IMG/VR virus record: IMGVR_UViG_3300038701_002238
Coordinates: 1 to 33,672 of that record
From: a virus
Length of the DNA: 33,672 nucleotides
Direction: 5' to 3' (one strand)
Shown: one piece after another, positions 268 through 24,166 of the stretch
Numbering within the stretch: the stretch's first letter is position 1
Layout of the letters: each line of letters begins with the position of its first letter
Position numbers and translations under genes: made by a program
Notes under the pieces: generated by a model
Databases searched by the model: none
Told to the model about the DNA's origin: nothing
What the model saw: the letters and a program-made list of their open reading frames with translations, nothing else

Positions 268-990
268 ATGGGTGGAGGCGGAGGCGGTGGCCTTATATCT
301 AAAGCAACGGACGCGGTAGGTTTAACAGACTCTGGCGCTGGAGATAGAGCCTTAGATGCTCAGCAAGGTGCAGCGAGAAAGTCCGATAGGTTTGCGAGAA
401 AGAAATATAGTGAATCTAAAAAGAGATTAAAGCCATACTTAGAAGGTGGTCAAAAATCGTTTTCAGATTTAATGAATTTCAACGATAACACTCAAAACTT
501 CCAAGATGCGCAGGGGCATTTTCAAGGTCACTCTGGTGTTTTTGGTATGGAGGATTTTGAGAAGGATCCAGGCTATGACTTCCGAATGCAAGAAGGAAGA
601 AAAAACATAGAAAGATCAGCCGCGGCTCGTGGTCGTATGGCATCAAGTGCAGGACTTAAAGCTCTTGCTAAGTTTGGTCAAGATTATGCGAGTAATGAAT
701 ATGGAAATGCTAGAAACAGATTCAACGAAGATTATGGCAATGCTTATAACCGTTTTAATGCCGATAATAGTAATAAGTTTAACAGACTAAACTCACTTGC
801 AACTTACGGAATGAATGCAGCTAACTCTATCAATGGGCTTGCAAGTAATCTTTCTAATTCATACGCAGCAACACAGGCAGGACTCGGAAATGCAGCAGCG
901 GCAAACGAAATGAGTCGTAACCAAAATGGGCTTGGTGGTCTTTGGTCTAAAGGTATGCAATTAGGTGGAATGTACATGGGGAGCAGATAA
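268..990 (+). CDS. DNA transfer (ejection) protein, P22 gp7-like position
   Basis: The 240-residue protein opens with seven glycines after Met, then a charged helical region. Around residues 110-150 it carries the block D-P-G-Y-D-F-R, E-G-R-K-N-I-E-R-S-A-A-A-R-G and L-K-A-L-A-K-F-G-Q-D, which recurs in many podoviral and siphoviral DNA-transfer/tail-tip proteins. The C-terminal half is rich in N, A, Y and R with a repeated N-x-x-N-R-F-N pattern, ending in a glycine/methionine-rich hydrophobic tail. It is the first of three ejection genes whose stops and starts overlap. Known members of this class are packaged in the virion and pass into the host envelope with the DNA. Glycine-rich hydrophobic ends suit membrane insertion. 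Confidence 0.85.
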   Translation: MGGGGGGGLISKATDAVGLTDSGAGDRALDAQQGAARKSDRFARKKYSESKKRLKPYLEGGQKSFSDLMNFNDNTQNFQDAQGHFQGHSGVFGMEDFEKDPGYDFRMQEGRKNIERSAAARGRMASSAGLKALAKFGQDYASNEYGNARNRFNEDYGNAYNRFNADNSNKFNRLNSLATYGMNAANSINGLASNLSNSYAATQAGLGNAAAANEMSRNQNGLGGLWSKGMQLGGMYMGSR

Positions 991-1943
991 TGTTTAACAC
1001 TAATATATATTCGCAAAAAACTTCACCAGACCTAGCAGGGAACGCGCAAAAAGGTTTTTCACTTGGTCAGATGATTAAAAAGAATCAACTTGGAAATAAA
1101 AAAAGAGAAGAGCAAGCAAAATATAAGCAAGCATTTTCAAATTATGTTGGTGGCGACCAAAAGGCACTCGGAGAGATGGCGAAATATAATCCTGAGATGG
1201 TTTATAAAATGCAAGACATGGAAGCCCAGAAAGAAATGAACACTCAAGACAGAGAACTCAATAACAGCTTAAAAAGGCAACAATTAAGAGAGCTTCAAAA
1301 TAAAAGAAATATGCCTAAATTATCTGAAGCACAAAAGGTTTATGACAGAGAGTCAGCCAAAGAGCTTGCAAAATTTGAAGTCGGTGGCGGTGTTGCAACT
1401 GTAAATAAGAATAAAGGGTTATTGCAAAACGCTATCAGCAAACTTGGTGAAGAGGGTGATATTGCTGGGGGATTCTCTACAAAATTACCATGGTTTGGTG
1501 ATGATAAACAGCAAGACTGGGTTAACCCAGACATGGCAGGGGTGCGAGATGATATTAGGAGTGCAATACAAGGCTCTTTAAAAGCCACACTTGGTGGTCA
1601 ATTTACTGAAAAGGAAGCTGAACAGATGTTTGCAAGGGCTTTTAATCCGAGATTAAGTGATGATGAAAATATCAGAAGAGCTAAGTCAGTGATGTTTGAG
1701 CTTGATGGTATAGCGGATAACAAGTCAGCAGCTTCAAAATATTTAAAAGAGAATGGAACTCTATCAGGATTTCAACCACCAAAACAAAAAAGCCTCCCTT
1801 CTCACTACGACAAAAAAGGAAGCAAAGGGCAAATTGACATCATGGGAATAAGTAGCGCCTATGCTGCTGATCCTGTTGAAACTCAAAACAGAATCAAAAA
1901 AATGAGTAGAGAAGAAAAGTTGCGATTATTACAAGGTAAATAA
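990..1943 (+). CDS. Putative ejection protein, P22 gp20-like position
   Basis: A 317-residue, mostly helical, K/Q/E-rich protein whose ATG overlaps the stop of the previous gene by one base (TAATG) and whose own stop overlaps the next ATG. Residues about 60-120 are predicted coiled coil by composition. The family is assigned from position between the gp7-like and the large gp16-like protein rather than from a clear motif. Near the C terminus (about residues 283-296) is a short hydrophobic stretch M-G-I-S-S-A-Y-A-A-D-P that looks like a signal-peptidase-type A-x-A site, odd this far into a protein. Such internal A-Y-A-A motifs may mark processing or membrane contact in ejection proteins, but that is inference. 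Confidence 0.7.
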   Translation: MFNTNIYSQKTSPDLAGNAQKGFSLGQMIKKNQLGNKKREEQAKYKQAFSNYVGGDQKALGEMAKYNPEMVYKMQDMEAQKEMNTQDRELNNSLKRQQLRELQNKRNMPKLSEAQKVYDRESAKELAKFEVGGGVATVNKNKGLLQNAISKLGEEGDIAGGFSTKLPWFGDDKQQDWVNPDMAGVRDDIRSAIQGSLKATLGGQFTEKEAEQMFARAFNPRLSDDENIRRAKSVMFELDGIADNKSAASKYLKENGTLSGFQPPKQKSLPSHYDKKGSKGQIDIMGISSAYAADPVETQNRIKKMSREEKLRLLQGK

Positions 1944-3793
1944 TGAAAAATGATTTATCAAAATTAAGTGATGCAGAGTTAGATAAAATGCTTATGAATA
2001 AGGTTTCAAGCGTTTCCAAGTCTAGTGACTTTAGCTCTATGAGTGATGATGAGTTAGATCAAGCATTATATAAAAAAATGTCAGCTCCTAAGCCTGCAAA
2101 AATTGATAAAGACAATGACACAATGGCGACTATTGAAGGTTTTGGGCAAGGTGCGACACTTGGTTATCTTCCACAACTGCAAGCAAAGCTCGAGCCTGTA
2201 ACAGATAGAATATTCAATGCGTTTGATTTTTCAGATGATGCGGATAAAGTTGAATTGGCCCCAATATCTCAACTAACCTCTAATGATGAAAATTATATTC
2301 AATCAAGAGATTCAAATATAAGAAGAAATCAAGAGCTTCAAGAAAATAATCCATATTCTTATAACATTGCACAAGTTCTAGGTGGGGTTACAGGTGGTGC
2401 AGGTTTACCAGTCGGGCAAGCTGCAAATACTATTAAAGGAGCTTCAAAGCTAGGTGCTGCTTATGGTTTATTATCCAACCCCGAAGATGTAGAGGGAGTT
2501 GTAAATGAAATGCAATTAACTCCAAGACTTAAAAATGCTGTTGTTGGTGCAATAACAGGGGCAGGAGCACAAAAGGGGCTTGAAAAGATAGCTAAAATTT
2601 CAAAACCACTAGCTCAAAAACTTATGAAAAGCGCAGAGAGAAAAGCAGCAAAAGCGCTAGGTGCTGAACGTGGAACCATAAAGAAACTAGGTGATGATAA
2701 AGTCAGAGAGGCAGGGCGCTATGCACTTGATAATGACGTTTTAGACGCTTCCGTTTTTGGTAATACTGAGAAGATGATAAGCAAGAATAAAACAGCTCAG
2801 TCGAAGGCTGGGGAGCTTATGAGTGATGTTTATGACCAGATAGATGATAATGGTCTAAGAGAATTTAGCCCATTAGATGCTGCTGCAAAAGTAGATGACC
2901 AGGTTGGAGATTTCTGGGCAAGATCACCACTAAATAAATCTGAAAATAACCAATTTGAAAATACTATAGAAGCGATACTTCAAAGAGGCGGAGATTCTGG
3001 TGAAAATATCGCAATTAAGGAAGCTCAAAAACTTAAGCAAGAGCTCGGAAAAGTAGCAAACTGGAAAAACAACGTAAATATAACAGATAAAGAAAAAATG
3101 GCTCGAGAAAGCTATGGAATAGTTAACGAGATGATTAATGAGGCAGTTGATAGTGGTGCGGAAAAAATAGGAAATAAAGATTTACTTGGGCAATTAAAGA
3201 AAGCAAAGAAAATGTTCTCTGGTAGTAAAGTAGCAGAAGAACTTCTTGAAAATAAAAACGCTAGAGAGCAGGGTAATAAATATATTGGCTTAACTGATGG
3301 CATCTGGGGCGGTGCTGCCCTAACTGCATTCGGCCCTAAGGGGTTGGCGATAATTGGAGCTAAAAAGATAGCAGAGAAATACGGCCCACAAAATACTGCA
3401 AGGTTTTTAGACAAAGTTGCAAAGGGTATTCAAAAAACACCAATGATTAAGAAATTAGCAAACGAGAATCCTGCTGCTTTTCAAGCAATGGTTTATCGCA
3501 TAGGTGCAAAAAATGAAGCTAAGTTTGGTTCTGATGTTGTTAATGGTTTAAAAGCTGCTGATAACGAGGTTAAAGGTGAAGATAAATGGGTTTTAAATGG
3601 TCTTGATAAACTATCAAAAGTTGAAGGAATAAATATCAATGATCCAAAAACAATAGAAAGGCTAATTGTCGATAAAAGAGGGGCAAGATACTTAGCAACA
3701 GCCTCCGACTTAAAAAAAGATTCTAAGGCCATGAAAGCCTTAATTGAGAAAATAAAAAAACATATCAAAGATAATCCGAAGGGGCAAAAATGA
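1943..3793 (+). CDS. Large ejection / internal virion protein, P22 gp16-like position
   Basis: The 616-residue protein is close in length to P22 gp16. The first 50 residues contain two copies of a short helical motif, L-S-D-A-E-L-D-K-M-L and M-S-D-D-E-L-D-Q-A-L, each followed by a K-rich turn. These S-D-x-E-L-D repeats are common at the start of large phage virion proteins. Around residues 145-180 a glycine/alanine-rich stretch, and around 452-475 a hydrophobic G-G-A-A-L-T-A-F-G segment, could insert in membrane. The remainder is charged helix. Third and last of the coupled ejection genes. Function is inferred from order, size and composition; no enzymatic motif is visible. Confidence 0.78.
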   Translation: MKNDLSKLSDAELDKMLMNKVSSVSKSSDFSSMSDDELDQALYKKMSAPKPAKIDKDNDTMATIEGFGQGATLGYLPQLQAKLEPVTDRIFNAFDFSDDADKVELAPISQLTSNDENYIQSRDSNIRRNQELQENNPYSYNIAQVLGGVTGGAGLPVGQAANTIKGASKLGAAYGLLSNPEDVEGVVNEMQLTPRLKNAVVGAITGAGAQKGLEKIAKISKPLAQKLMKSAERKAAKALGAERGTIKKLGDDKVREAGRYALDNDVLDASVFGNTEKMISKNKTAQSKAGELMSDVYDQIDDNGLREFSPLDAAAKVDDQVGDFWARSPLNKSENNQFENTIEAILQRGGDSGENIAIKEAQKLKQELGKVANWKNNVNITDKEKMARESYGIVNEMINEAVDSGAEKIGNKDLLGQLKKAKKMFSGSKVAEELLENKNAREQGNKYIGLTDGIWGGAALTAFGPKGLAIIGAKKIAEKYGPQNTARFLDKVAKGIQKTPMIKKLANENPAAFQAMVYRIGAKNEAKFGSDVVNGLKAADNEVKGEDKWVLNGLDKLSKVEGININDPKTIERLIVDKRGARYLATASDLKKDSKAMKALIEKIKKHIKDNPKGQK

Positions 3794-4149
3794 AAAATCT
3801 ATTATTAATATTAATTATCTTCACTAGCTATAATGCATTAGCTTCTAAAAAACTAATAACTGATGCAAGTATGGGCGCAGATGTAACAAGTCAACCAATA
3901 AGTATAGATGCAAAAAAAGGTTACTCGGTTCAATTAATCTATAGCGGTACGCCTAACGGAGCATTTACGCTTGAGGGAAGTGTTGATGGTAGCACATGGG
4001 AGTCAATAAACGGTTCTAATATAACCATCACAGCAAGCGGAGATAGTTTATACAATATATATAACGCTCAATATGCACTTTTTAGACTCGTGTTCACTCG
4101 GGCATCAGGGACAGGAACACTAAACGCTTATTATAAGCTTAAGGAGTAA
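3790..4149 (+). CDS. Small secreted beta-sandwich-like protein
   Basis: The 119-residue product has a clear Sec signal peptide: M-K-N followed by a run of L and I, then an N-A-L-A cleavage site near residue 18. The mature part is S/T/G-rich beta structure with the motif G-S-V-D-G-S-T-W-E-S-I, typical of small beta-domains in phage tail fibres and carbohydrate-binding modules. The ATG overlaps the previous stop (ATGA) and has an AAGGGG ribosome site, so it is translated with the virion genes. A signal peptide on a protein made in the late structural operon is unusual because virion proteins normally stay in the cytoplasm. It could act in the periplasm or at the surface, possibly at lysis. No family was recognised with confidence. 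Confidence 0.75.
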   Translation: MKNLLLILIIFTSYNALASKKLITDASMGADVTSQPISIDAKKGYSVQLIYSGTPNGAFTLEGSVDGSTWESINGSNITITASGDSLYNIYNAQYALFRLVFTRASGTGTLNAYYKLKE

Positions 4150-4152
4150 TCA

Positions 4153-4596
4153 ATGAGATTAGTAATATTTTTACTTTTAATTAGTACGGTTTCTTTTGCG
4201 AACTATGTTGAAATAGGTGTTAATCCTCTTGAAATTTACGTCAAGGCAGTAGATGTAGACACAAATACACTTGTGGGAAGTACAACAGTAATGGATTGGC
4301 AAGAAACTGAAGACACAATGAACTTGTACAATGCAGGAGTTTTTACAGCGCCTCAAGACGATATTTATACAATTAAGTATGCGGTTAGATTTACAGGGAG
4401 TTTATCATCACTTCATATGCGCTATGTTGATGGCTCATTTACTGAGTATATGTGCTTTATAACCTCTTCAACTACCCATATATGTAGTGATCGCATTAAG
4501 CTTGATAGAGGTCAAACTCTTCACTACAGAGTTTTAACAGGTGCTACAACTGCCGATGATCCAACTAGAAACTATATAACAATTTCAAACATATAA
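4153..4596 (+). CDS. Secreted C1q/TNF-like jelly-roll protein
   Basis: The 147-residue protein starts with a 16-residue signal peptide ending S-F-A. The mature part follows a C1q/TNF-like jelly-roll pattern: A-G-V-F-T-A-P followed by a D-I-Y-T-I-K-Y strand, then L-D-R-G-Q-T-L-H-Y-R, and a final short strand N-Y-I-T-I-S-N-I closing the domain. Such domains are trimeric and bind ligands; in phages they usually sit at the ends of fibres. Here the domain is free-standing and exported. It has a strong AAGGAG site and follows another secreted beta-protein by 3 bp, so the two look like a pair. Two cysteines (CFI and CSD) could form a disulfide in the periplasm. The C1q match is from pattern only. 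Confidence 0.72.
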   Translation: MRLVIFLLLISTVSFANYVEIGVNPLEIYVKAVDVDTNTLVGSTTVMDWQETEDTMNLYNAGVFTAPQDDIYTIKYAVRFTGSLSSLHMRYVDGSFTEYMCFITSSTTHICSDRIKLDRGQTLHYRVLTGATTADDPTRNYITISNI

Positions 4597-4605
4597 GGCT
4601 TAGAT

Positions 4606-6915
4606 ATGACTGCAATAGTATGCCCAGAAATTAAAAAACAATATGTCGATGCTAACGGTGATCCTTTAAGTGGCGGCAAGTTGCACGTCTATGAATCTGG
4701 GACAACAACTCCAGTAAATAGCTACACGACAAAAGACGCTGATGTTGCGAACGCTAACCCAATTATTTTAAATTCCAGGGGAGAAGTTGAAACAGGGCCA
4801 TTTTTAAATGCAGGATCTTACAAATTTGTTTTAACTGATTCTGATGATGTAACTATCTGGACTCAAGACAATATTGTAATTAGAGATTTTGGCACTGAAA
4901 TAGATGCAATCGAAGTATCAATTGCAGAAAGTGAAGTTTCAACGCTTGCACCTAATAGACTTATATCAGGTGAGAATTCAGATAATAGTAGCGCGCCTAG
5001 ATTTCTACTACCTGTGGCCTCTAATAATCAAGTAAAAATACTGGCAACATCTACTGACCTAGTTTACTCAGTCGAAGGCACTCAATACACGCTAGATAGC
5101 GATACTGTAGCAAGTGGTCTTTTAAGCCCTCCAACTTCAAATAATACAGCAGATATTAATGACTCTGTGGTTAGTGAGCAGGATTATGTTAAAACGCTCG
5201 GAATGTTTGGAACCTCAATTCCCATTGACAACATTGGTAGCGAGATTACAAGCTTAAACGGGAAATTAGCAGCTTTCAAAATAGAAGGCTCAGATGTTGA
5301 ATATATAATAGCTAGGGTAGATTCTACCAACTCGAGACTAATTGAAGTTGTTAGAGGTTGTTTTTATGATTCAAATGGAAATCTAACAGTATCAAAAGCC
5401 TTTGCTGATGATGACACTGTTACGCTAATGAAGCTTACATGGATATATCTAAATACATCAGGACAGATGATAGTAAGCTATAACGAGCCTTTTTATTCTA
5501 CGACACAGCCAAGCTCTCCAACTGATGGTGATATGTGGTACGACCTAACTAATAAGAAATGGAAAAGGTTTAATTCAACTGCCTTTGCTGATGCTTCCGT
5601 GACATTTCTGGGAACATGTATTCAAGACGAAAACGATGTCACAGTGGGTGCAAGGCCTGAGTTTTTCCATGCATCTTATAATGAAGATAATTCAATATCT
5701 CTTGAATATGTTTCAGCTACTCAAGTTAGAAGTAGAGAGAATAATAATTGTATAAATGTAAATGGATTTTCTTATGTTTTAAAAGATAGTTTTATTACTT
5801 GGGATATTACATCTCATTTAGAAAGTGGAGAGAGTGAAGACTCCGATTTAACTTTTTTCTGCTATCTTGATGAGGGGGGCGATCCTAAAATGTCAACAAA
5901 ACCACCGATTGAACTTGAGGGAAGGTTAAAAGGGTCTTATCACCCTTCTGAAATGTGGCGATATGTTGGTTCCATTTATAATGATGAAAATGATGATTTT
6001 GTCGAATCAAGCTTAGTTAAAAGTGAGAAAGAATCTATTTTTGACAGTTCTCTTATTAAGTCAGAGCAAGGCAGCGGTAACACGATAAATTTAACTCACT
6101 TTGATAGATATGTTTTTTGTGATGTTTTATCAGGTGCAGTAACGGTTAATTTACCTAGTGCTAAAAATGTAGAAAGCAAAAAAATAACTATAAAGAGAAA
6201 CGATGTTTTTGGCGGTATTAGAAAAGATTTAACAGATTCAGAGGTGACAACTGGCACAGATAACTTAAATATAGATGGCCATGGTTTTACTACAGGTAAA
6301 AAAGTTAGAATATCAAACAGTGGTGGCGCAGTACCTACAGGCTTGGCGGTGCTAACTGACTACTATGTAATTGTTGTTGATGTTGATAACATAAAGCTTG
6401 CATCTTCAAGGGCGAATGCTGACTCTGGCACACCTATAGATATTACTGCCGCTTCTGGTGGTGGTACTCACACAATAGAGCCTCAAGAAAATTCACTTAC
6501 AATTAATCCAGTTTCAGGACAAACCATCGAGGGTGAAAGTTCAAAATTATTATATGGGGAGAATGAAATAATTGAGCTTCTTTCTGATGGTAGTAATTGG
6601 GAGTTGTTACACAGAGACAATGGAAACAATATAACTGAAAGTGAAATAATTATAGGTAAGTGGGACAATGAAACTCTGTATAGAAGATTTTTTAGAGAAG
6701 AAAGTCGGGCAGATGGCTTAACAATAGTTACTGGTGTCTCGAATCTCATTTCAACTGTTGGGTGGTCAAAAGTAGGATCGTTTAAAAGAACTATGAACTA
6801 CGGTATCAGTGGGACTTTCTCAAGAGTTGACTTTGATGATGCTGCTGGCGACTTAGAAATAAATTCTAGTGCTAGTTATGTGTCTGAGTTTTACGTTGAT
6901 TACACTAAATCATAG
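4606..6915 (+). CDS. Tailspike / tail fibre with P22-type head-binding N terminus
   Basis: 769 residues. The first 95 or so residues match the head-binding domain shared by podoviral tailspikes: an opening K-K-Q-Y-V-D-A-N-G-D-P-L, then G-G-K-L-H-V-Y-E-S-G-T, N-P-I-I-L-N-S-R-G-E and a strand ending I-W-T-Q-D-N-I. A middle segment near residue 300 has P-S-S-P-T-D-G-D-M-W-Y-D, a short module common in tail fibres. Around residues 550-625 is another phage module with L-N-I-D-G-H-G-F-T-T-G, L-T-D-Y-Y-V-I and I-K-L-A-S-S-R-A-N-A-D-S. No pectate-lyase-like beta-helix repeats, SGNH or other enzyme motif is seen, so it looks like a binding fibre rather than a depolymerase. It attaches to the virion and recognises the host surface. 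Confidence 0.88.
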   Translation: MTAIVCPEIKKQYVDANGDPLSGGKLHVYESGTTTPVNSYTTKDADVANANPIILNSRGEVETGPFLNAGSYKFVLTDSDDVTIWTQDNIVIRDFGTEIDAIEVSIAESEVSTLAPNRLISGENSDNSSAPRFLLPVASNNQVKILATSTDLVYSVEGTQYTLDSDTVASGLLSPPTSNNTADINDSVVSEQDYVKTLGMFGTSIPIDNIGSEITSLNGKLAAFKIEGSDVEYIIARVDSTNSRLIEVVRGCFYDSNGNLTVSKAFADDDTVTLMKLTWIYLNTSGQMIVSYNEPFYSTTQPSSPTDGDMWYDLTNKKWKRFNSTAFADASVTFLGTCIQDENDVTVGARPEFFHASYNEDNSISLEYVSATQVRSRENNNCINVNGFSYVLKDSFITWDITSHLESGESEDSDLTFFCYLDEGGDPKMSTKPPIELEGRLKGSYHPSEMWRYVGSIYNDENDDFVESSLVKSEKESIFDSSLIKSEQGSGNTINLTHFDRYVFCDVLSGAVTVNLPSAKNVESKKITIKRNDVFGGIRKDLTDSEVTTGTDNLNIDGHGFTTGKKVRISNSGGAVPTGLAVLTDYYVIVVDVDNIKLASSRANADSGTPIDITAASGGGTHTIEPQENSLTINPVSGQTIEGESSKLLYGENEIIELLSDGSNWELLHRDNGNNITESEIIIGKWDNETLYRRFFREESRADGLTIVTGVSNLISTVGWSKVGSFKRTMNYGISGTFSRVDFDDAAGDLEINSSASYVSEFYVDYTKS

Positions 6916-6934
6916 CTAAACAAGGAGTGAGCTG

Positions 6935-7177
6935 TTGAAAGTTGTTGTAGATTGGGTTTTAAAAATCATAAGTACAATTATAATGGGTGTGGCCCTGTAT
7001 ATATTTAATAGTTTTCAAGCTTCTTTCAAAGACATGAAAAATGATATTTCTCAAATGAAAGACAGTATCGTTGATTTAAATACCAAATTCGCAGTTTATA
7101 ACGAAAAACAAATTTATTCACAAAAAGAAAGGTCTAGGCTTGAAAAAAGAATTGATCGTTTAGAGGAAAGAAAGTGA
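6935..7177 (+). CDS. Membrane-anchored coiled-coil lysis protein (holin or i-spanin candidate)
   Basis: 80 residues, starting at TTG with a strong AAGGAGTG site 10 bp upstream. One N-terminal transmembrane segment (about residues 6-25, I-I-S-T-I-I-M-G-V-A-L-Y-I-F) is followed by a charged heptad-like coiled coil ending R-L-E-K-R-I-D-R-L-E-E-R-K. N-terminal TM plus periplasmic coiled coil is the layout of Rz-type i-spanins, but the protein is about half their length; single-TM small holins are the alternative. It overlaps the endolysin gene by 4 bp (GTGA), which places it in the lysis cassette. Confidence 0.7.
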   Translation: MKVVVDWVLKIISTIIMGVALYIFNSFQASFKDMKNDISQMKDSIVDLNTKFAVYNEKQIYSQKERSRLEKRIDRLEERK

Positions 7178-7605
7178 CAAAATCGTTAATGATCTTAATG
7201 GCAATGCAATATCTAAACACACCTTATAAGTGGGGTGGAAATTCCTATGATGGCCTTGATTGTTCGGGATTTGTTCTTAAGGTTTTACATGATGTGGGCA
7301 TTACGCTTCCTGATATGACCGCCAATGATATTTTTGAATATTGTCAGAAGAAAGGCGAAAAAGTTTATTCAGATGAATGCGATGCTCTTTTATTTTTTGG
7401 AACGAAAAACAAAATCACTCATATTGCTATTTCTATGGGTGTAATTGAAAACAAAAATTTAATGATCGAAGCAGGGGGAGCAGGGCGCAGTTCTTTAGAA
7501 ATGAGCAAAGCTGAACTAGCTAAGCGTGATGCAAGAGTGAGAATAAAAGAAGTATCAAGTCGTAAAGACTTATATGCATCAATATATTTACCTTACAAGG
7601 AGTAG
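7174..7605 (+). CDS. NlpC/P60 family endolysin
   Basis: 143 residues with the NlpC/P60 cysteine-peptidase signature: Y-K-W-G-G-N-S-Y-D-G-L-D-C-S-G-F with catalytic Cys at residue 30, and the histidine in I-T-H-I-A-I at residue 83. A polar third residue may lie near I-E-A-G-G (about 99). The family cuts peptide bonds in the peptidoglycan stem. There is no signal peptide, so it would need a holin to reach the wall. The GTG start overlaps the TGA of the upstream membrane protein, implying coupled translation. The domain fills the whole protein, with no extra wall-binding module. Confidence 0.9.
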   Translation: MTKSLMILMAMQYLNTPYKWGGNSYDGLDCSGFVLKVLHDVGITLPDMTANDIFEYCQKKGEKVYSDECDALLFFGTKNKITHIAISMGVIENKNLMIEAGGAGRSSLEMSKAELAKRDARVRIKEVSSRKDLYASIYLPYKE

Positions 7606-7608
7606 TAA

Positions 7609-7875
7609 ATGAGTGAAGAAAAGAAAACACCATTAAAAGAATTAAAAGAGGGCGCTAAGGCGATTGGATATTTAGCAGGTGAGATTACTGAGGCTACAAA
7701 AGATGGACTTGGTATTGAGGATCTCAAGTCAGTTAAAGACATTATTGATAACCAGGCAATTGTTAGAGGTGGAATTGAAGGAATCGATGAGGCTTCTTTA
7801 AAAGGGCTTTCTTATGATGAAATTCTCGGAGTTCTTTTATCAATGAAAGAAGGTTTTGATATTGGGATTAAATAA
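7609..7875 (+). CDS. Small acidic protein of the lysis region
   Basis: 88 residues, behind an AAGGAG site 3 bp after the endolysin gene. Alternating charged and small hydrophobic residues suggest two or three helices; there is no transmembrane segment or cysteine. The stop shares its last base with the ATG of the next gene (TAATG), so it is co-translated with the lysis proteins. I do not recognise the family. Confidence 0.7.
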   Translation: MSEEKKTPLKELKEGAKAIGYLAGEITEATKDGLGIEDLKSVKDIIDNQAIVRGGIEGIDEASLKGLSYDEILGVLLSMKEGFDIGIK

Positions 7876-8099
7876 TGATTTCTAATTTATGGGCACTGAT
7901 TAAAGCGGTGCCTGTTTTAATTACTACATTCAAGCAACTTGTTGATTTATATGTTAGTGAGCAAGTTAAAGCAATAAGAGCAGAACACATAACTATAGAT
8001 GACCAGAAAAATGCTCTCTTAAAGGCAATTGAAAATGCACAAACAAACGAAGAAATTCTTGCTCATTCCGTTACTTTACGCAATCTTAATAGGGGCTAG
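7875..8099 (+). CDS. Small protein with hydrophobic N terminus (lysis cassette)
   Basis: 74 residues. Residues about 3-28 form a long hydrophobic/amphipathic helix (L-W-A-L-I-K-A-V-P-V-L-I-T-T-F), followed by a charged helix likely to be coiled coil. The start overlaps the preceding stop. Its last 65 bp overlap, in another frame, the start of a lipoprotein-like gene. A membrane-tethered helical protein with an out-of-frame overlapping lipoprotein is the arrangement of Rz/Rz1 spanin pairs, although this protein is short. An i-spanin role is inferred from that arrangement only. Confidence 0.65.
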   Translation: MISNLWALIKAVPVLITTFKQLVDLYVSEQVKAIRAEHITIDDQKNALLKAIENAQTNEEILAHSVTLRNLNRG

Positions 8100-8355
8100 T
8101 TGCGAGAATGAAAGGGCTTCAAATTATTTTAACAGACCTGTTTTAAAAGAATGTATTACGGCCATTCAAGATGGTGCAACACTTGGAATGATGGCTTGTG
8201 ATGGTAAATTAGTCCCAATACCGTCAAAAATGGTAGTGCCTCAATCAAACGAAGACTACAAGAAAGCATCTAAATACTACAGCGATAGGGAAATAGGGCA
8301 CTATATTTGTTATAGATTTCCGAGAAAATGCCAAAAGCGAAGGTATAGGGATTAA
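8035..8355 (+). CDS. Lipoprotein-like protein overlapping its upstream gene (o-spanin candidate)
   Basis: 106 residues from the ATG at 8035, chosen because AAAGG lies about 9 bp before it; a TTG two codons upstream is the alternative. The N terminus is K-K-F-L-L-I-P-L-L-Y-A-I-L-I-G-A-S-C, a signal sequence ending at a cysteine with an imperfect lipobox (I-G-A-S-C). The mature part has four more cysteines and a basic tail (R-F-P-R-K-C-Q-K-R-R-Y-R). It starts inside the preceding gene in a different frame, as Rz1 genes do. An outer-membrane lipoprotein role in lysis is plausible. The Cys-rich C-terminal domain is not typical of Rz1 and may do something else. Confidence 0.7.
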   Translation: MHKQTKKFLLIPLLYAILIGASCENERASNYFNRPVLKECITAIQDGATLGMMACDGKLVPIPSKMVVPQSNEDYKKASKYYSDREIGHYICYRFPRKCQKRRYRD

Positions 8356-9312
8356 ATGAATCTTCACGAGATTGTTTCTAATTATAAGAAAATCTCGAAG
8401 GAATTAGGAAAAACGCCCACCATTAAGGAAATAGTAAAACACTCAAATATAAGTAAAAGACAAATAAACAAATATACTCATAACGAGCTTTGCAGAAAAG
8501 CAGGGCTTAATCCAAACACCAATACGCATGGTTTTGAAAAAATAACTATAGAGATTAGGCCACCGAAGATATTAATACTCGATATTGAAACTGCGCCTAT
8601 GCTCGTTAGAAGTTATGGGTTATGGAATCAAAATATATCAACAGGGTTTATCGTTAAAGATTGGTATATGATCTCATTTGCTGCTAAATGGGCGAATAAG
8701 AGTAAGTTCTACTACGCAGACACAAGATATACACACGAGAATGACCTTGAGCCATCAAAGCTCGCTCATAGCCTAATAGAACAGGCTGATGTAATTGTAG
8801 GTCATAACCTAGACCGCTTTGATATGAAAAAGCTCAATACAAGATTTCTAAAGCACAATTTACCACCGATTGGAAAAAGACAAACGATAGACACTTTAAA
8901 GATAGCTAAAAAGTATTTTGCAATATCTTCAAATAAACTAGATTACATCGCTAAATTCTTAGGGATTGAAGGTAAGAGGAAATCCAAAAAGTATAGTCAA
9001 CAAGAAATGTGGAACGGCTGTTGTGAGGGGATTTTAGATTGCTTTAAGGAAAATGAAAAATACAACAAGCAAGATATTACTGTGACGGAAGAGGTTTTTG
9101 ATAATCTCAAGAAATGGGATGAAAATTTAAACTTCCAGGCATATTACGGCAAGAAAGTTTGTATTTGTGGAAATGATAAATATAGAAAAGATGGGTTGCG
9201 TTATTCTAAGCAAGGTGCATTTCAAAGATTTAAGTGCTTAGAGTGTGGCAAAAATTACACTGGAAAAGAAAATCTAATTGATAAAGACTTAAGAAAAACA
9301 TTTTACAAGTGA
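8356..9312 (+). CDS. DEDDy 3'-5' exonuclease-like protein with HTH-type N terminus and zinc ribbon
   Basis: 318 residues with three parts. Residues 1-55 form a small helical domain (L-G-K-T-P-T-I-K-E, C-R-K-A-G-L-N-P) resembling the helical repeats of homing endonucleases. Residues 70-255 are an RNase H-like DEDD exonuclease: D76/E78 in L-D-I-E-T, D156 in G-H-N-L-D-R-F-D, and Y236-N-K-Q-D240, which makes it the DEDDy type of DnaQ and family-B polymerase exonucleases. Residues 268-300 are a C4 zinc ribbon (C269, C271, C294, C297) with G-L-R and Q-R-F-K-C. No polymerase domain follows. It begins 1 bp after the lipoprotein stop and is the penultimate gene of the late strand. A DNA-processing role is likely; the substrate is unknown. 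Confidence 0.85.
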   Translation: MNLHEIVSNYKKISKELGKTPTIKEIVKHSNISKRQINKYTHNELCRKAGLNPNTNTHGFEKITIEIRPPKILILDIETAPMLVRSYGLWNQNISTGFIVKDWYMISFAAKWANKSKFYYADTRYTHENDLEPSKLAHSLIEQADVIVGHNLDRFDMKKLNTRFLKHNLPPIGKRQTIDTLKIAKKYFAISSNKLDYIAKFLGIEGKRKSKKYSQQEMWNGCCEGILDCFKENEKYNKQDITVTEEVFDNLKKWDENLNFQAYYGKKVCICGNDKYRKDGLRYSKQGAFQRFKCLECGKNYTGKENLIDKDLRKTFYK

Positions 9313-9318
9313 GGTTAA

Positions 9319-9624
9319 GTGAAGAAGTTCAAGAGCCATAAAATTGAAATCATGGGCAAAGAAGTTTTAGTTAATTTTATACCTCACGTTATCCACAGTG
9401 GGCAATATTGGTCTGGAATGTTTTATCCCGATAAATGGCTCATAGAAATTGCAACAGAAGGTAATACCGAGGACTTTATAAAGCATACTTTTTTACATGA
9501 ATTAGGCCATGCAATCACTTATCGAATAGGTGCAATACAGGCAGATTTTAGCAATGATCTTCAAGAAATGATTGTCGAAAACTACGCTACTGTTTTAACT
9601 GAGCTGTGGGATTTCGAGTTATAA
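9319..9624 (+). CDS. Small zinc metallopeptidase-like protein (HELGH)
   Basis: 101 residues from GTG with an AGGTTAAG leader. The zinc-binding motif T-F-L-H-E-L-G-H-A-I lies at residues 57-66 (H60, E61, H64), with a downstream helix Q-E-M-I-V-E (residues 82-87) that could give the third ligand, as in gluzincins. This minimal fold is common in phages and resembles ImmA/IrrE-like peptidase cores without the HTH part. No substrate can be inferred. It is the last gene of the rightward block, immediately before attP. Confidence 0.8.
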   Translation: MKKFKSHKIEIMGKEVLVNFIPHVIHSGQYWSGMFYPDKWLIEIATEGNTEDFIKHTFLHELGHAITYRIGAIQADFSNDLQEMIVENYATVLTELWDFEL

Positions 9625-9633
9625 TTAACATTA

Positions 9634-9666
9634 TTTTGTGACACTTTTTGTGCGCCTTTTGTGCGC
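9634..9666 (+). repeat. Left arm-type repeats, TTTTGTG x3
   Basis: TTTTGTG occurs at 9634, 9646 and 9657, spaced 12 and 11 bp, about one helical turn. The last two are followed by CGC (TTTTGTGCGC). They are likely integrase arm-type binding sites on the P side. A similar TTTGTGCGGA is present in the opposite orientation at 9978-9987, close to the integrase stop. Confidence 0.6.
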
Positions 9667-9711
9667 ATATTTTTATCACCTTCATAAGTAATTAAAATGT
9701 TTATGTTTTTT

Positions 9712-9748
9712 AGAGAGTTGCGAGGGTTCAAGTCCCCCACAACTCTTA
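9712..9748 (+). other. tRNA 3'-end-like segment, probable attP core
   Basis: The segment has a T-arm-like hairpin, GAGGG-TTCAAGT-CCCCC (9722-9738, one A:C mismatch), whose loop fits the tRNA consensus TTCRANY. An outer 7-bp stem AGAGTTG/CAACTCT (9714-9720 with 9740-9746) surrounds it. No D-arm or anticodon arm is present upstream, so it is not a tRNA gene. Phages that integrate into tRNA genes carry just such a 3' fragment, which rebuilds the host gene after integration. Crossover in the 7-base T loop is the usual location. Confidence 0.65.
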
Positions 9749-9812
9749 ACTATGATAATCGATTTATTTTTTCATTATACTGTAAAGCAGAGTCACTTAA
9801 AACAAAATATAA

Positions 9813-9843
9813 ATCCGCAAAGATTCCGCAAAGATTCCGCAAA
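9813..9843 (-). repeat. Right arm-type repeats, TTTGCGGA x3
   Basis: Read on the minus strand, TTTGCGGA occurs three times with an exact 11-bp period (TCCGCAAA at 9814, 9825 and 9836 on the plus strand). The helical phasing and position opposite the left array relative to the core fit P'-side integrase arm sites. Confidence 0.62.
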
Positions 9844-9888
9844 TTATAAGTTTTTGATTTTTAAAGAGTTAAGAAGCGTAAGTAATTG

Positions 9889-9938
9889 ATTTAGTGGTAG
9901 CGTCGGGCAGAGTTGAACTGCCAATTATGACACTAAAT
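9889..9938 (-). other. Second tRNA 3'-end fragment with encoded CCA
   Basis: On the minus strand the sequence has a perfect T arm, GGCAG-TTCAACT-CTGCC (9922 down to 9906), then seven acceptor-strand bases CGACGCT, a discriminator A and CCA (down to 9895). This is the exact layout of a tRNA 3' terminus. There is no matching 5' acceptor strand (AGCGTCG) or anticodon arm upstream, so it is a fragment. It is enclosed by an 8-bp inverted repeat, ATTTAGTG (9889-9896) and CACTAAAT (9931-9938). It lies outside the arm arrays, between them and the integrase, so it may be a relic of another integration site or a structured element. Confidence 0.6.
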
Positions 9939-9999
9939 AGTAATGATTTCGGTTGCTTGTATGGCGTTGTTTTTTCATCCGCACAAATTCCGCATATAA

Positions 10000-11295
10000 T
10001 CACTGAGCTTCTTTAAACTCTAAAATATTAAAAGCGTCGTTAACATTTTCACTTTTTGCATAAACATATCGTTCCATTAAGGTCTTTGCTCTAACTCCTG
10101 ACATTTTTTCTAGTACCGAAATGCTTACGCCGTTTGACTCTAAGTGTGATAAAAGTGCGTGTTTAATCTCATACATATTCAACTTAAATGTAGGTGTTTT
10201 TTTGAGTCCAGATAATTGGACAGCTTCACGCCATGCTCTTTGTATAGGTCTATCTGAAATTGAGTCTTTGTATTTACCTTTGAATATAAAAGAGTCTAAT
10301 TCGTTTTCTATGCTTACATATTTTTGAAAAATCTCTCTAGCCTCACTAAGAAGAGGTAGGGTTAATTTAGAGTATTTTTCTCCTTCACCTTGAGACTTTC
10401 TTCCGGTTGTTAACTCACCTTCACTAAAGTGTTCGTCAAAAGTTATTGTGTGATTTACAAAATCAATATCGTTCCAACGCAAAGCCCTAAATTCTGAAGG
10501 TCTGACAGGATAGAAGAGAGCAAGACTTATTATGTCTTTATACTTTTCGTTTTTCACCTTGCTGCATATTAATTTGGCTTGTTCATAATTCATTATCTCA
10601 ATGCGTTTTTTAGATGATTTGACTTGATCTAGGCGAGGCACACTCTTGATATGCCCTAATCTATGGGCCTCAAACAAAATGGTTTTAAGCTCATTTACAG
10701 TGTAATTAATTGTGTTTTCTGTTGCATCGTAATTAACTCTAAAGCCTCTTACTTTGTTGGTGTTGATAAGATTTACTGGTTGCTTTTTAAAAAAATTCTT
10801 TAGGTGGTTGCAACTTTTAACCTTGTTTTTATATCCTGACTTTGTAATCTCTTTGTTTTTCCATCTTTTAAAATGGAAAGGGAGATATATCTGGTCTACA
10901 AAGTTGGTAAACTCTAATTGTTCTCGCATTTTCTTTGAGTCATAATCTCTATAATCAAAATCACCACTTTCTAGTTCTGCTCGAATATTCTCAAGAGTGT
11001 TTAAGCAACGGCCAGCTTTTTCTAATCTTCTACCATTTTGGTCGTGCCTAATTGTTACGCTTTTTTTCTTACCAAGATCATCTTCAACCCTTGCTACAAT
11101 TCTAAACCTTAGAGGGTGCTTGGAGCATGAGGCACAACGAGGGATGAGGATGCTTTCATCAAATTCATAATATTCGTTAAATTTGCCACCACAGCGGCAC
11201 TGATTTGACTTGTTTTCATCAGCGTATATTTTAGCACTCAAGAAGTTGCCCTTGTTTAAAGAGTTTTGAATGTTAAAAAATACGGCCTTTTTCAT
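10000..11295 (-). CDS. int: Tyrosine recombinase / phage integrase with N-terminal zinc motif
   Basis: 431 residues. The N-terminal region has a C-x-C...C-x-x-C zinc-ribbon-like motif (C33, C35, C54, C57), followed by a SAM-like core-binding region (about 125-225) and the catalytic domain (235-425). Arg I is R265 in Y-P-V-R-P-S-E-F-R-A-L-R-W, a probable catalytic Lys is K308 or K310, and the nucleophile is Y410 in M-E-R-Y. The usual H-x-x-R box reads Y375-E-I-K378-H, and the second His position is Val (G-V-R), so two or three normally conserved residues are replaced. The gene ends beside attP and carries out phage integration and excision. The ribosome site before the ATG is weak. Confidence 0.92.
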   Translation of the reverse strand: MKKAVFFNIQNSLNKGNFLSAKIYADENKSNQCRCGGKFNEYYEFDESILIPRCASCSKHPLRFRIVARVEDDLGKKKSVTIRHDQNGRRLEKAGRCLNTLENIRAELESGDFDYRDYDSKKMREQLEFTNFVDQIYLPFHFKRWKNKEITKSGYKNKVKSCNHLKNFFKKQPVNLINTNKVRGFRVNYDATENTINYTVNELKTILFEAHRLGHIKSVPRLDQVKSSKKRIEIMNYEQAKLICSKVKNEKYKDIISLALFYPVRPSEFRALRWNDIDFVNHTITFDEHFSEGELTTGRKSQGEGEKYSKLTLPLLSEAREIFQKYVSIENELDSFIFKGKYKDSISDRPIQRAWREAVQLSGLKKTPTFKLNMYEIKHALLSHLESNGVSISVLEKMSGVRAKTLMERYVYAKSENVNDAFNILEFKEAQ

Positions 11296-12003: not shown

Positions 12004-12549
12004 TTATCTCCCTGTTAACCACGACCACGTTGTGCCGTTCTTTATATTCTTAATGTTTTCCACTTCAACATTAAACTTTTCAGCAAGCTCCTTAATTGTG
12101 TGAGTATCAAACATCCCGCACATATTCGTCACCTGCTTATTAGTCAGTTTTGTTTTACCGCTATCTTCGCCACGCTTTTGCCACCCACCAGTCATTATCA
12201 TTGCGTGATTAATGTTGTGTTTCTGGTCGCACCACTCGAGATTGGAAGCCTTGTTATTTGTTTTGTCTCCGTCAATATGATTAACATAGGGGTAGTTATT
12301 GGGATTAGGGATAAAGTGCTGAGCGACTAATCTGTGAACCCTTAGTGTTTTTGTTTTTCCATAAGAGATAGTAGGTAGCACATAGCAGTAGCCCCAATTA
12401 TTAGGCGGAGTTTTCATCATCTTTTCCTTAACATTTTGGTAAACGCCGCGACGGAAAATCTTTCTCGCATTGCTCCTTACTCTGCCATGATTGCTAATTG
12501 AGTAATTACCCTTAAAACCATCTATATCTTTCCATATTTCACTATTCAT
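12004..12549 (-). CDS. HNH homing-type endonuclease with NUMOD4 domain
   Basis: 181 residues. The N terminus matches NUMOD4 (W-K-D-I-D-G-F, Y-S-I-S-N-H-G-R-V-R-S). The HNH nuclease core follows at about residues 93-133: H-R-L-V-A-Q-H-F-I-P, then N-H-I-D-G-D-K-T-N-N and N-L-E-W-C. The C terminus (about 145-180) is a NUMOD1/HTH-like DNA-binding segment starting K-L-T-N-K-Q-V. These are free-standing mobile nucleases common in phages. A GAGGT ribosome site overlaps the stop of the preceding small gene. It shares architecture with the protein at 13395-13925, but the two sequences differ widely. Confidence 0.9.
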   Translation of the reverse strand: MNSEIWKDIDGFKGNYSISNHGRVRSNARKIFRRGVYQNVKEKMMKTPPNNWGYCYVLPTISYGKTKTLRVHRLVAQHFIPNPNNYPYVNHIDGDKTNNKASNLEWCDQKHNINHAMIMTGGWQKRGEDSGKTKLTNKQVTNMCGMFDTHTIKELAEKFNVEVENIKNIKNGTTWSWLTGR

Positions 12550-13394: not shown

Positions 13395-13925
13395 TTACCT
13401 TTTATTATGTTGTTTATAATCAATCACATTCATCCAACTCCAAGCCTTACCGCTTTTAATAGAGCTTATGTTAGCTTGGGTTACTCCATAGTGTTCTGCT
13501 ATTTTCCATTGTGGCATGTAACCTAAGAATGTCTTAATCGTTAGTATCTCCATATCATCTAATACGGTTTTTGGGTTATCAGTACCGAACATGCCAAACT
13601 TTAACCCAGTATCAAAAGCATGTTGAGTATTCTCTTGATTTGTCATCCACTCCAAATTTGAAACATGGTTATTATTTTTATTGCCATCTTTATGGTTTAC
13701 TTGCCATTTATCCTTAGGTTTTTCAATAAAAGCCTCTGCTACTAATCGGTGTCTCATTTTACCTATTGTTTTTCCATTCTTTCGCAGAAATATTTGGTGG
13801 TAGCCGCGTCGATTTTTACCGCCGATTAAAACGGTTGGAGTTTTCTTTTTATAGCTAACAACTTCACCATTTTCATTGACTGTGTAGCCGTCGAAATTTT
13901 TTATATTTTTAACTCTGTATTTCAA
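13395..13925 (-). CDS. HNH homing-type endonuclease, NUMOD4-like, second copy
   Basis: 176 residues with a shortened NUMOD4-like start (F-D-G-Y-T-V-N-E-N-G-E-V-V-S), an HNH core (H-R-L-V-A-E-A-F-I, then N-H-K-D-G-N-K-N-N-N and N-L-E-W-M) at about residues 58-95, and a C-terminal HTH (W-K-I-A-E-H-Y-G-V-T-Q-A-N-I-S-S-I) that probably binds DNA. It ends K-A-W-S-W-M, close to the T-T-W-S-W-L end of the other copy, so they share ancestry. It lies 9 bp from the next gene and 21 bp from the previous one, as expected for a free-standing insertion in an operon. Confidence 0.9.
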   Translation of the reverse strand: MKYRVKNIKNFDGYTVNENGEVVSYKKKTPTVLIGGKNRRGYHQIFLRKNGKTIGKMRHRLVAEAFIEKPKDKWQVNHKDGNKNNNHVSNLEWMTNQENTQHAFDTGLKFGMFGTDNPKTVLDDMEILTIKTFLGYMPQWKIAEHYGVTQANISSIKSGKAWSWMNVIDYKQHNKR

Positions 13926-16770: not shown

Positions 16771-17175
16771 CTAGAAAGGTAAATCGTCACCGCTATAATT
16801 ATTATGATTATTCTCAAGAGGGGAGGTATCACCCTCCCCAGATTTCCCAGAATTATCAGAGTTGCCCCCGATAAATTGAACTGATAACGCTACAAACTCA
16901 CTAATATATTTTTTATTACCGTCTTTGTCTTCATATGATCTTGATGTGAATTTAGACTCAATATAAACTTCTTTGCCTTTTGAAATGTATTGCGCGCATA
17001 CTTCCGCTAATTTATTCCAAACAACAATATTCACAAATTGAGTACTTTCTTTTTCTCCGTATTTCTCGTTGATTGCTACTGAAAAATTGCAAACTGATTT
17101 TCCACTTGTAGTAGTTTTTAATTCTGGAGCCTGTGTCGCTCTGCCTATAAAAATACATTTGTTTAAATTAGCCAT
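16771..17175 (-). CDS. ssb: Single-stranded DNA-binding protein
   Basis: 134 residues from the ATG at 17175, which has an AGGAG site 5 bp upstream. An OB-fold SSB pattern is clear: N-K-C-I-F-I-G-R-A-T-Q-A-P-E-L near the start, F-V-N-I-V-V-W-N-K-L-A-E mid-domain and G-K-E-V-Y-I-E-S-K. After a Gly/Ser/Asn-rich linker the protein ends D-D-L-P-F, the acidic tip that recruits partner proteins. It would coat ssDNA during replication and ERF/exonuclease recombination. Confidence 0.95.
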   Translation of the reverse strand: MANLNKCIFIGRATQAPELKTTTSGKSVCNFSVAINEKYGEKESTQFVNIVVWNKLAEVCAQYISKGKEVYIESKFTSRSYEDKDGNKKYISEFVALSVQFIGGNSDNSGKSGEGDTSPLENNHNNYSGDDLPF

Positions 17176-17791
17176 TTTTACTCCTATAATTTTTAATACA
17201 CTTCGTTGCATCTATCTCTTCTTTAAATGAGCCGAGTCTCTTCTTTTTCTTATTTTCATAGACGACAACCTCCCATTTTTTGCTGGATCTACTAAAGTAA
17301 ACTCCTTGATGTTTTGATGTGCCTAGTTGTTTCAATCTCTTGTTTTTTGCTTGAATTTCCCATGTAGCCCAGCGACAATTTTTTGGATCGTAATTGCCCT
17401 CGTTATCGATCCTGTCAAGAGTTGTGTCCTTAGGCCTAACCCCCATGTCTGCTAAAAATTTCTCAAAACTGTTCCACCTAACACAAAATGATATTCCTCT
17501 TCCTCCATAGTTTTTATACTCGGGAACATTTTTATTGAGGCACCTGTTTTTCATCGAGCACCATGATTTATAGGTTGGTGTTCTCGACATATTGTGTTTG
17601 GATAGTTTTTCAACCCTCCTCTCAGTCCTTAAACACCCACAACTCAGAGAATATTTTCCAATTCCATCTTTTCTAATAAGTTTTTGCTTTCCACATTCGC
17701 AAGAGCATAAAACTTTTTCTCTGCTTGTTTTGGAGTTATACTCATTTAAATTATAAGTTAGCCTTCCTTCTTTTTTTGTTAACTTACTCAT
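17168..17791 (-). CDS. HNH endonuclease with AP2 DNA-binding domain
   Basis: 207 residues from the ATG at 17791, which has AAGGAG upstream and overlaps the preceding TGA (TGATG). An N-terminal Cys cluster (C-S-C-E-C-G, C-G-C) may bind zinc. The middle holds Y-G-G-R-G-I and L-D-R-I-D-N-E-G-N-Y-D-P-K-N-C-R-W-A-T, the HNH-family core of phage and plastid homing nucleases. The C terminus (about 158-205, K-H-Q-G-V-Y-F-S through L-G-S-F-K-E-E) is an AP2/ERF-like fold, which places this in the HNH-AP2 family. It overlaps the ssb start by 8 bp and is likely a mobile gene inserted in the replication operon. Confidence 0.9.
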   Translation of the reverse strand: MSKLTKKEGRLTYNLNEYNSKTSREKVLCSCECGKQKLIRKDGIGKYSLSCGCLRTERRVEKLSKHNMSRTPTYKSWCSMKNRCLNKNVPEYKNYGGRGISFCVRWNSFEKFLADMGVRPKDTTLDRIDNEGNYDPKNCRWATWEIQAKNKRLKQLGTSKHQGVYFSRSSKKWEVVVYENKKKKRLGSFKEEIDATKCIKNYRSKNG

Positions 17792-18360
17792 CAAGCACTC
17801 CTTAAATTTTTATTTTCTAATTCATCTAAATATCTTTTTCCCCAAGTTGGATAATTGGGGTTATTTTCTTTTTTACCTTTTTCACAAAAACAATTAAAAA
17901 CTCTATCAGCCATATAAGGTCGTATTTTTGAAGTAGCAAAAACTAATCCAATATCATTGCAGTGCTTACACTTTGACTGATTTAACCTTGATAATCCTGT
18001 CTTGATAGAATCCAATGCTTTTACGTTTCCATTAAGGCCCTGCATTAAACCTTTACTTATTTGCCCTAATTGCTCGGGCGTAAACATAGATTTAAATTCT
18101 TTTGATTCTTTGTTTTTTTGCTCGTTTCTATTTTGAACAATGAAAGGCTCAGCAATTTGCCTAAATTTAATTGGGGTAGGTGCATAACCACCTTGCATGA
18201 GTATTTCATCGCATACGCGCTTAAATTGATTTATCTTAAGAGTTTTCACTTGCTCATAAATTAATTGAACTTTTCTTTGAGAAAACTTATTAGCACCAAA
18301 CTCATCAACAATATCTTGAATGAGTGCTTGAAAGTTTATTCTTGGTAGGTATTCAGACAT
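17791..18360 (-). CDS. Replication-accessory protein with zinc motif
   Basis: 189 residues from the ATG at 18360 (GAGGTG upstream; overlaps the initiator stop). The N-terminal half is helical (I-Q-D-I-V-D-E-F-G-A, F-K-R-V-C-D-E-I-L). The C-terminal part has C-K-H-C-N-D-I-G and C-F-C-E-K-G, a four-Cys zinc site. Proteins of this layout sit next to phage replication initiators and may act as helicase loader or replisome partners. Function inferred from position. Confidence 0.72.
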   Translation of the reverse strand: MSEYLPRINFQALIQDIVDEFGANKFSQRKVQLIYEQVKTLKINQFKRVCDEILMQGGYAPTPIKFRQIAEPFIVQNRNEQKNKESKEFKSMFTPEQLGQISKGLMQGLNGNVKALDSIKTGLSRLNQSKCKHCNDIGLVFATSKIRPYMADRVFNCFCEKGKKENNPNYPTWGKRYLDELENKNLRSA

Positions 18361-22031: not shown

Positions 22032-22346
22032 ATGAGAATTTTAATTATACTTAGTTTACTTGCTTCGTGTGCAACATCAACAATAGTTACAAAGCCAACA
22101 AAGCCAAAGCACGCACCAAAGGGATATGTTCCAGTAGGTGTTGCCAGATATTTAAACCAGGGCGCAGATTCTATTATTGAAAAAAGAAGGGAGCATGCTT
22201 TTAAATCTATGAGCGATTCATGTAAGGGCGATTACGAAATCCTCAGAGAAGGTGAGAAAAAAGGCAATTCTTGGGTAGATAATAGCGCAGGATATACAGC
22301 CATTAAGTCTAAGCGATATTGGTATATTGAATTTAAATGTAAATAA
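22032..22346 (+). CDS. Small lipoprotein, possible lysogenic conversion protein
   Basis: 104 residues with a short type II signal, M-R-I-L-I-I-L-S-L-L-A-S-C, and a good lipobox (L-A-S-C at residues 10-13). The mature part is basic at first (K-P-T-K-P-K-H-A-P-K), then alpha/beta with two more cysteines, C-K-G-D-Y-E and a terminal F-K-C-K. A GGGG-type ribosome site precedes the ATG. It stands alone between the repressor and the late block, the usual place for genes expressed from the prophage, such as superinfection-exclusion lipoproteins. That role is inference. Confidence 0.78.
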   Translation: MRILIILSLLASCATSTIVTKPTKPKHAPKGYVPVGVARYLNQGADSIIEKRREHAFKSMSDSCKGDYEILREGEKKGNSWVDNSAGYTAIKSKRYWYIEFKCK

Positions 22347-23692: not shown

Positions 23693-24166
23693 ATGTCAAA
23701 TAAGAAAGATCCAAAATCAAATCTAACGCCCAAGCAAGAATTGTTTTGCATGGAATACCTTAAAGATTTAAATGCGACACAGGCAGCGATAAGGGCTAAA
23801 TACAGCGAGAAAACTGCGCAAGAGCAAAGCTCGAGACTGTTATCAAATGTTATGGTGCAACAATTCATACAAAAGCAATCTAGTAAGAAGATGAAAAAGC
23901 TAGATGTTGAAGCAGAAGATATAATTAAATCAATTATTGAGATTCGTGATATATGCGCAAAGACTGTTAAGGCTCAAAGAAAAGATGGTGAGGAAGTCGA
24001 GTCTTGCGTTGATGCTAGTAGCGCAATTAAATCAAATGAGCTTCTTGGTAAATACATTAAAATGTTCACAGATAAAATTGAGCTATCTGGTGATGAAGAA
24101 AAGCCAATTACCGTTAAGAACATTGATCTTGCTGAAAGGCTTAAAAGCTTAAAGAAGAAAAGCTAA
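23693..24166 (+). CDS. terS: Terminase small subunit (Terminase_2 type)
   Basis: 157 residues. The N terminus L-T-P-K-Q-E-L-F-C-M-E-Y-L-K-D-L-N-A-T-Q-A-A-I-R-A matches the HTH of Terminase_2-type small subunits, followed by A-Q-E-Q-S-S-R-L-L-S and a helical oligomerisation region. It recognises the phage pac site and recruits the large subunit, whose ATG overlaps its stop (TAATG). Confidence 0.93.
   Translation: MSNKKDPKSNLTPKQELFCMEYLKDLNATQAAIRAKYSEKTAQEQSSRLLSNVMVQQFIQKQSSKKMKKLDVEAEDIIKSIIEIRDICAKTVKAQRKDGEEVESCVDASSAIKSNELLGKYIKMFTDKIELSGDEEKPITVKNIDLAERLKSLKKKS

Follow-up and report, generated by a model that had tools for sequence, protein, structure and literature searches.

In the late operon of a P22-like phage, two small adjacent genes, ORF-A and ORF-B, encode proteins with predicted cleavable Sec signal peptides, and ORF-A is, judged on its sequence, a phage tail-accessory domain, cytosolic in its relatives, in exported form. 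The sequence analysed here, referred to below as the window, is a whole virus record of 33,672 bases that encodes a P22-like portal and coat, a gp10-like head closure protein and a gp7-type ejection protein. Its two ends are near-repeats of each other, which indicates that it is probably a complete genome, either circular or permuted.

Late-gene context and signal peptides

The late genes run from the terminase (position 24166) through the portal and coat genes, across the ends of the window, and on to the ejection genes (268-3793), ORF-A, ORF-B, the tailspike gene and an NlpC/P60 peptidase gene. The ejection genes include one for a P22 gp7-type DNA ejection protein (268-990, plus strand; phrog_598, E=7e-30) and, at the P22 gp16 position, one for a large ejection protein (1943-3793, plus strand). 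The tailspike (4606-6915, plus strand) is 769 aa long, with a head-binding-like N-terminal domain as in its relatives and no signal peptide. Downstream, the peptidase gene (7174-7605, plus strand; PF00877) encodes a cell-wall peptidase that is a probable endolysin.

ORF-A (3790-4149, plus strand) encodes 119 aa, comprising a Sec signal (aa 1-18) and a 101-aa mature beta-sandwich, while ORF-B (4153-4596, plus strand) encodes 147 aa, comprising a Sec signal (aa 1-16) and a mature domain of C1q/TNF-like type that contains two cysteines. The predicted signal peptides are MKNLLLILIIFTSYNALA (3790-3843, plus strand), followed by SKKL in the mature protein, and MRLVIFLLLISTVSFA (4153-4200, plus strand), followed by NYVE. 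Both N-termini have n-, h- and c-regions of the SPase-I type, with mean h-region hydropathies of 3.42 for ORF-A and 3.38 for ORF-B. These calls were made with a rule-based predictor that scored 17 of 2760 shuffled N-termini as positive (0.6%), a rate at which an adjacent pair of signals is not expected by chance.

Both genes are tightly packed for translation, with the large ejection gene before them and the tailspike gene after. The ATG of ORF-A lies in an ATGA overlap with the upstream stop codon and has an anti-SD energy of -5.4; M28, the sole alternative start within the gene, has no SD, and translation from it would lose conserved sequence. The ATG of ORF-B lies 3 nt past the ORF-A stop and has the strongest SD (-6.6). 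The SD of a second ATG within the gene, at M47, is weaker (-4.7), and initiation there instead of at the first ATG is possible. A sequence-only reading of this DNA had placed two adjacent Sec-signal proteins between the ejection genes and the tailspike, and their coordinates and signals hold as described there. The objection that the true starts lie downstream of the signals is answered by the ATGA overlap and the SD energies, with M47 left as a possible start for ORF-B. That both proteins are cytosolic, through chance hydrophobic N-termini or misassigned starts, draws on the use of a rule-based predictor for the signal calls and on the internal ATG of ORF-B, and is very improbable given the low false-call rate, the strong SDs at both first ATGs, and the recurrence and cysteine parity described below. 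Export is the best-supported step in our interpretation, and a well-supported one at the level of sequence prediction.

Predicted folds and relatives

The claim that ORF-A is a beta-sandwich was borne out by a confident AF2 model with seven strands (pLDDT 86.5). A profile search identified 14 IMG/VR loci that partly overlapped earlier matches, and ORF-A was aligned over the full domain length with 11 relatives (alignment A3, 12 sequences). Identity to ORF-A was 23-37% over the whole mature domain, with an SGTGTLNA motif in common. The relatives are mostly 110-137 aa long and none of the 11 has a signal peptide; as mature ORF-A corresponds to an entire cytosolic relative, the signal must have been added. 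They form a family of ~112-aa phage proteins (L118-L129), encoded beside tail-fibre genes, that resembles ORF-A in domain, size and the C-terminal position of the motif, and differs from it in that the window copy alone carries a signal peptide. Where the locus is visible, the usual place of the relatives also matches that of ORF-A, with a large ejection-type gene on the upstream side and fibre-like genes downstream. In Foldseek comparisons, the closest solved phage folds were YomS (TM 0.65) and XepA (TM 0.60), neither of which was among the ORF-A profile matches to PDB sequences, and the closest predicted viral structures were uncharacterised phage proteins of ~110 aa. A Pfam match to ETX_MTX2 scored 17.9 bits against a cut-off of 22 and was rejected.

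The best match of ORF-B was to the C1q-like domain of a 917-aa protein from MW202898, a podovirus that is not P22-like (29% identity over 108 aa, E=9e-9). This protein is tail-fibre-like, has a signal peptide, and matches BclA_C at E=4e-4, below the cut-off. Related C-termini are found in exported proteins of two portal relatives (L085 and L095), and marginal PDB matches to the PRD1 minor capsid protein and Eiger (by profile) and to EMILIN-1 (by single sequence) are all of the C1q/TNF kind. Direct IMG/VR searches with ORF-B and with the ejection protein found no close relatives. The C1q-like character that the sequence-only reading had proposed, here a resemblance to a C1q/TNF-like fibre tip, is supported at the level of sequence; the AF2 model of ORF-B, from which a jelly-roll fold was to be judged, reached a pLDDT of 42. 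Two further candidates were set aside, namely a Pfam PA14 match (13.4 bits, cut-off 24) and a match to the Kyle tail sheath that is antisense to the gene.

Recurrence of exported late proteins in related phages

To survey recurrence, we collected relatives of the portal protein and read their tail regions. On the portal tree, which includes neither Rhodoferax phage P26218 nor MW202898, the window falls in a clade of nine (support 100/98) of which seven carry exported ORFs, compared with one of 14 phages outside it. The export label is clustered on this tree, with 9 of 500 shuffles as low, yet four changes are needed to explain its distribution. In six of those seven clade phages the exported proteins are encoded in the virion, tail or lysis region, and several are fibre-like; one, of 668 aa, matches the tail fiber family phrog_18345 (E=4e-16). 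Exported ORFs were seen in L081, L082, L084, L085, L093 and L095, and in L102 two exported ORFs lie in tandem ahead of the terminase, the fibre slot of this phage being beyond the available stretch. None of the other phages searched carried ORF-A and ORF-B together as an exact pair.

Among five reference P22-like records, that of Rhodoferax phage P26218 has one strong signal-peptide ORF, P26218_24, between its tailspike and lysis genes. Our call agrees with the genome description of this phage, which, in the portion drawn on here, gives exactly one SignalP match and no gene name for it (PMC4657236). MW202898 shows the export pattern outside P22-like phages. Across exported proteins whose mature form contains cysteine, 12 of 13 have an even number, as disulfide bonding would predict, whereas the figure for neighbours is 63 of 136 (Fisher p=0.002); ORF-B has two cysteines and ORF-A has none. 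The proposal that exported tail or adhesin domains occur in the virion operon is well supported, and gains further from the cytosolic ORF-A relatives and from recurrence in the portal clade. The two proteins may be virion proteins, as the sequence-only reading implied, although XepA, a phage protein of similar fold, is not found in mature particles.

Several other features of these loci were observed. The tandem exported ORFs of L095 (1139-2040) and L102 (4851-5749) are paralogs of 147-152 aa with two cysteines each, one of which was scanned and gave no family match. Both contigs lie in a MAG with an archaeal 16S and were read as mis-binned, so this route to a host was rejected; nor was a tRNA found as a host clue. 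In L093 (reverse strand, 4455-11246), five consecutive exported beta-rich ORFs follow a short head-binding protein. A search for the Peptidase S74 chaperone domain found it not in the exported fibres but in an unusual place, in or beside gp7-type ejection proteins (G002:C1:21146-21292, G003:C1:4491-4646 and G004:C1:23899-24051).

Possible functions of the exported proteins

The sequence-only reading put forward three roles, namely coating the host, blocking superinfection and joining particles at lysis, and judged on sequence any of them may apply. Our preferred, if tentative, explanation is that ORF-A and ORF-B are late, Sec-exported adhesin-type domains derived from tail-fibre accessory proteins that occupy receptors around lysis. 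They would be translated together with the ejection genes; the added signal would then carry them into the periplasm and be cleaved off, with ORF-B probably becoming disulfide-bonded. At or around lysis they would reach the cell surface and the medium, where the released domains would bind glycans or proteins of the envelope. The dying cell, its debris or the envelope would thus have their receptors occupied, and progeny or superinfecting virions would not be wasted on them. The operon position, signal peptides, signal-free ORF-A relatives, recurrence and cysteine parity are observed; we infer actual export, ligand binding and receptor occupancy. As the 769-aa tailspike is intact, ORF-A and ORF-B need not be its receptor-binding part, and for these small proteins the likeliest role seems to be that of free adhesins occupying receptors or the envelope. 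Against this explanation, little time is left for a late protein to protect the cell that produces it, the domains could be active on the envelope instead of adhesive, and long exported fibres alongside short cytosolic tailspikes favour a two-part fibre in the phages that have them.

The main rival is that the exported proteins join the particle at lysis, as distal receptor-binding pieces. Folding and disulfide formation would take place in the periplasm, and the pieces would be added to cytosolic particles bearing a short anchor once lysis brings the two compartments together. P22 tailspikes attach in vitro to finished heads, which is in keeping with such late joining. Head-binding proteins, identified by HMM, are short (474, 212, 206, 221 and 234 aa) in phages with long exported proteins, whereas 13 others are mostly 359-769 aa (p=0.023), although this comparison is a small one made post hoc, in which L082 is truncated by the end of its contig. 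MW202898 encodes a 305-aa protein that by eye resembles the N-terminal domain of T7 gp17 and, after it, the exported 917-aa protein with the C1q tip. The short anchors suggest that the exported fibre is a distal particle part in those relatives; however, no shared docking segment is evident by eye at the mature N-termini, and the window tailspike is full length, making this arrangement possible but on the whole unlikely here. More broadly, it is doubtful that tailed phages have split receptor-binding fibres, in which a cytosolic anchor is joined only at lysis by a distal part that is Sec-exported and stabilised by disulfides, and to which ORF-A and ORF-B may belong. Some phage host-binding parts are probably sent outside the cytoplasm.

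Two known kinds of exported phage protein offer further alternatives. PBSX XepA and SPbeta YomS share with ORF-A a C2-like beta-sandwich fold and a phage late region, and XepA is described, in the portion of the report drawn on here, as exported, absent from mature particles and cytotoxic (PMC6834076). An exported domain that disturbs the membrane or envelope and aids lysis would fit both the Foldseek matches and the lysis genes downstream. It is improbable, since TM values of about 0.6 indicate likeness at the level of fold only, ORF-A relatives adjoin fibre genes, and ORF-A has a single domain, as does YomS, which is non-toxic according to the same portion of that report; XepA is there a two-domain protein, and no signal peptide is given for it. 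A moron or lysogenic-conversion origin, with expression from the prophage, is suggested by the integrase-like ORF identified by eye at 10000-11295 and by the position of P22 sieA, which lies between genes 16 and 9. SieA is an envelope-located prophage exclusion protein that blocks superinfection at the ejection step; it has three transmembrane helices in the inner membrane and no signal, in contrast to the predicted cleavable signals of ORF-A and ORF-B, in which no hydrophobic segment was seen beyond the signal. Lambda Lom is a precedent for a signal-peptide protein encoded among tail genes, but is an outer-membrane beta-barrel, unlike either protein. The ATGA coupling, the lack of an excess of promoter-like matches (10 found, 14.6 expected from shuffles) and the descent of ORF-A from a family of the virion operon, not from a host gene, render this origin quite improbable.

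A host-encoded parallel is known in Bdellovibrio, which exports phage-fibre-like adhesins with TNF/C1q-like tips (PMC10769870). These MAT fibres share with the window proteins a signal peptide, phage-fibre-like parts and C1q/TNF-like tips, but are ~1000 aa long with beta-helix shafts and, by description, a conserved beta-rich domain after the signal, whereas the window proteins are phage-encoded and comprise 119 and 147 aa. Exported late proteins encoded by phages are already known, as with Lom and XepA; in the open-access literature searched, we came upon no account of a podovirus tail operon encoding a virion-operon domain in exported form. The prevailing view is that dsDNA phages make and assemble their tail fibres in the cytoplasm. 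Export of fibre-like proteins by a clade would alter this view of how receptor-binding parts are made, or would alternatively reveal a secreted class controlling adsorption and superinfection, and Rhodoferax phage P26218 provides a cultured system with an exported late protein.

Elsewhere in the window, an ORF with a signal at 8029-8355 overlaps another at 7875-8099 and is possibly an Rz1-like spanin, and an early-region ORF at 22032-22346 has a lipoprotein-like signal, MRILIILSLLAS followed by C, and may be an exclusion gene. Three ORFs (12004-12549, 13395-13925 and 17168-17794) are homing-endonuclease-like by eye.
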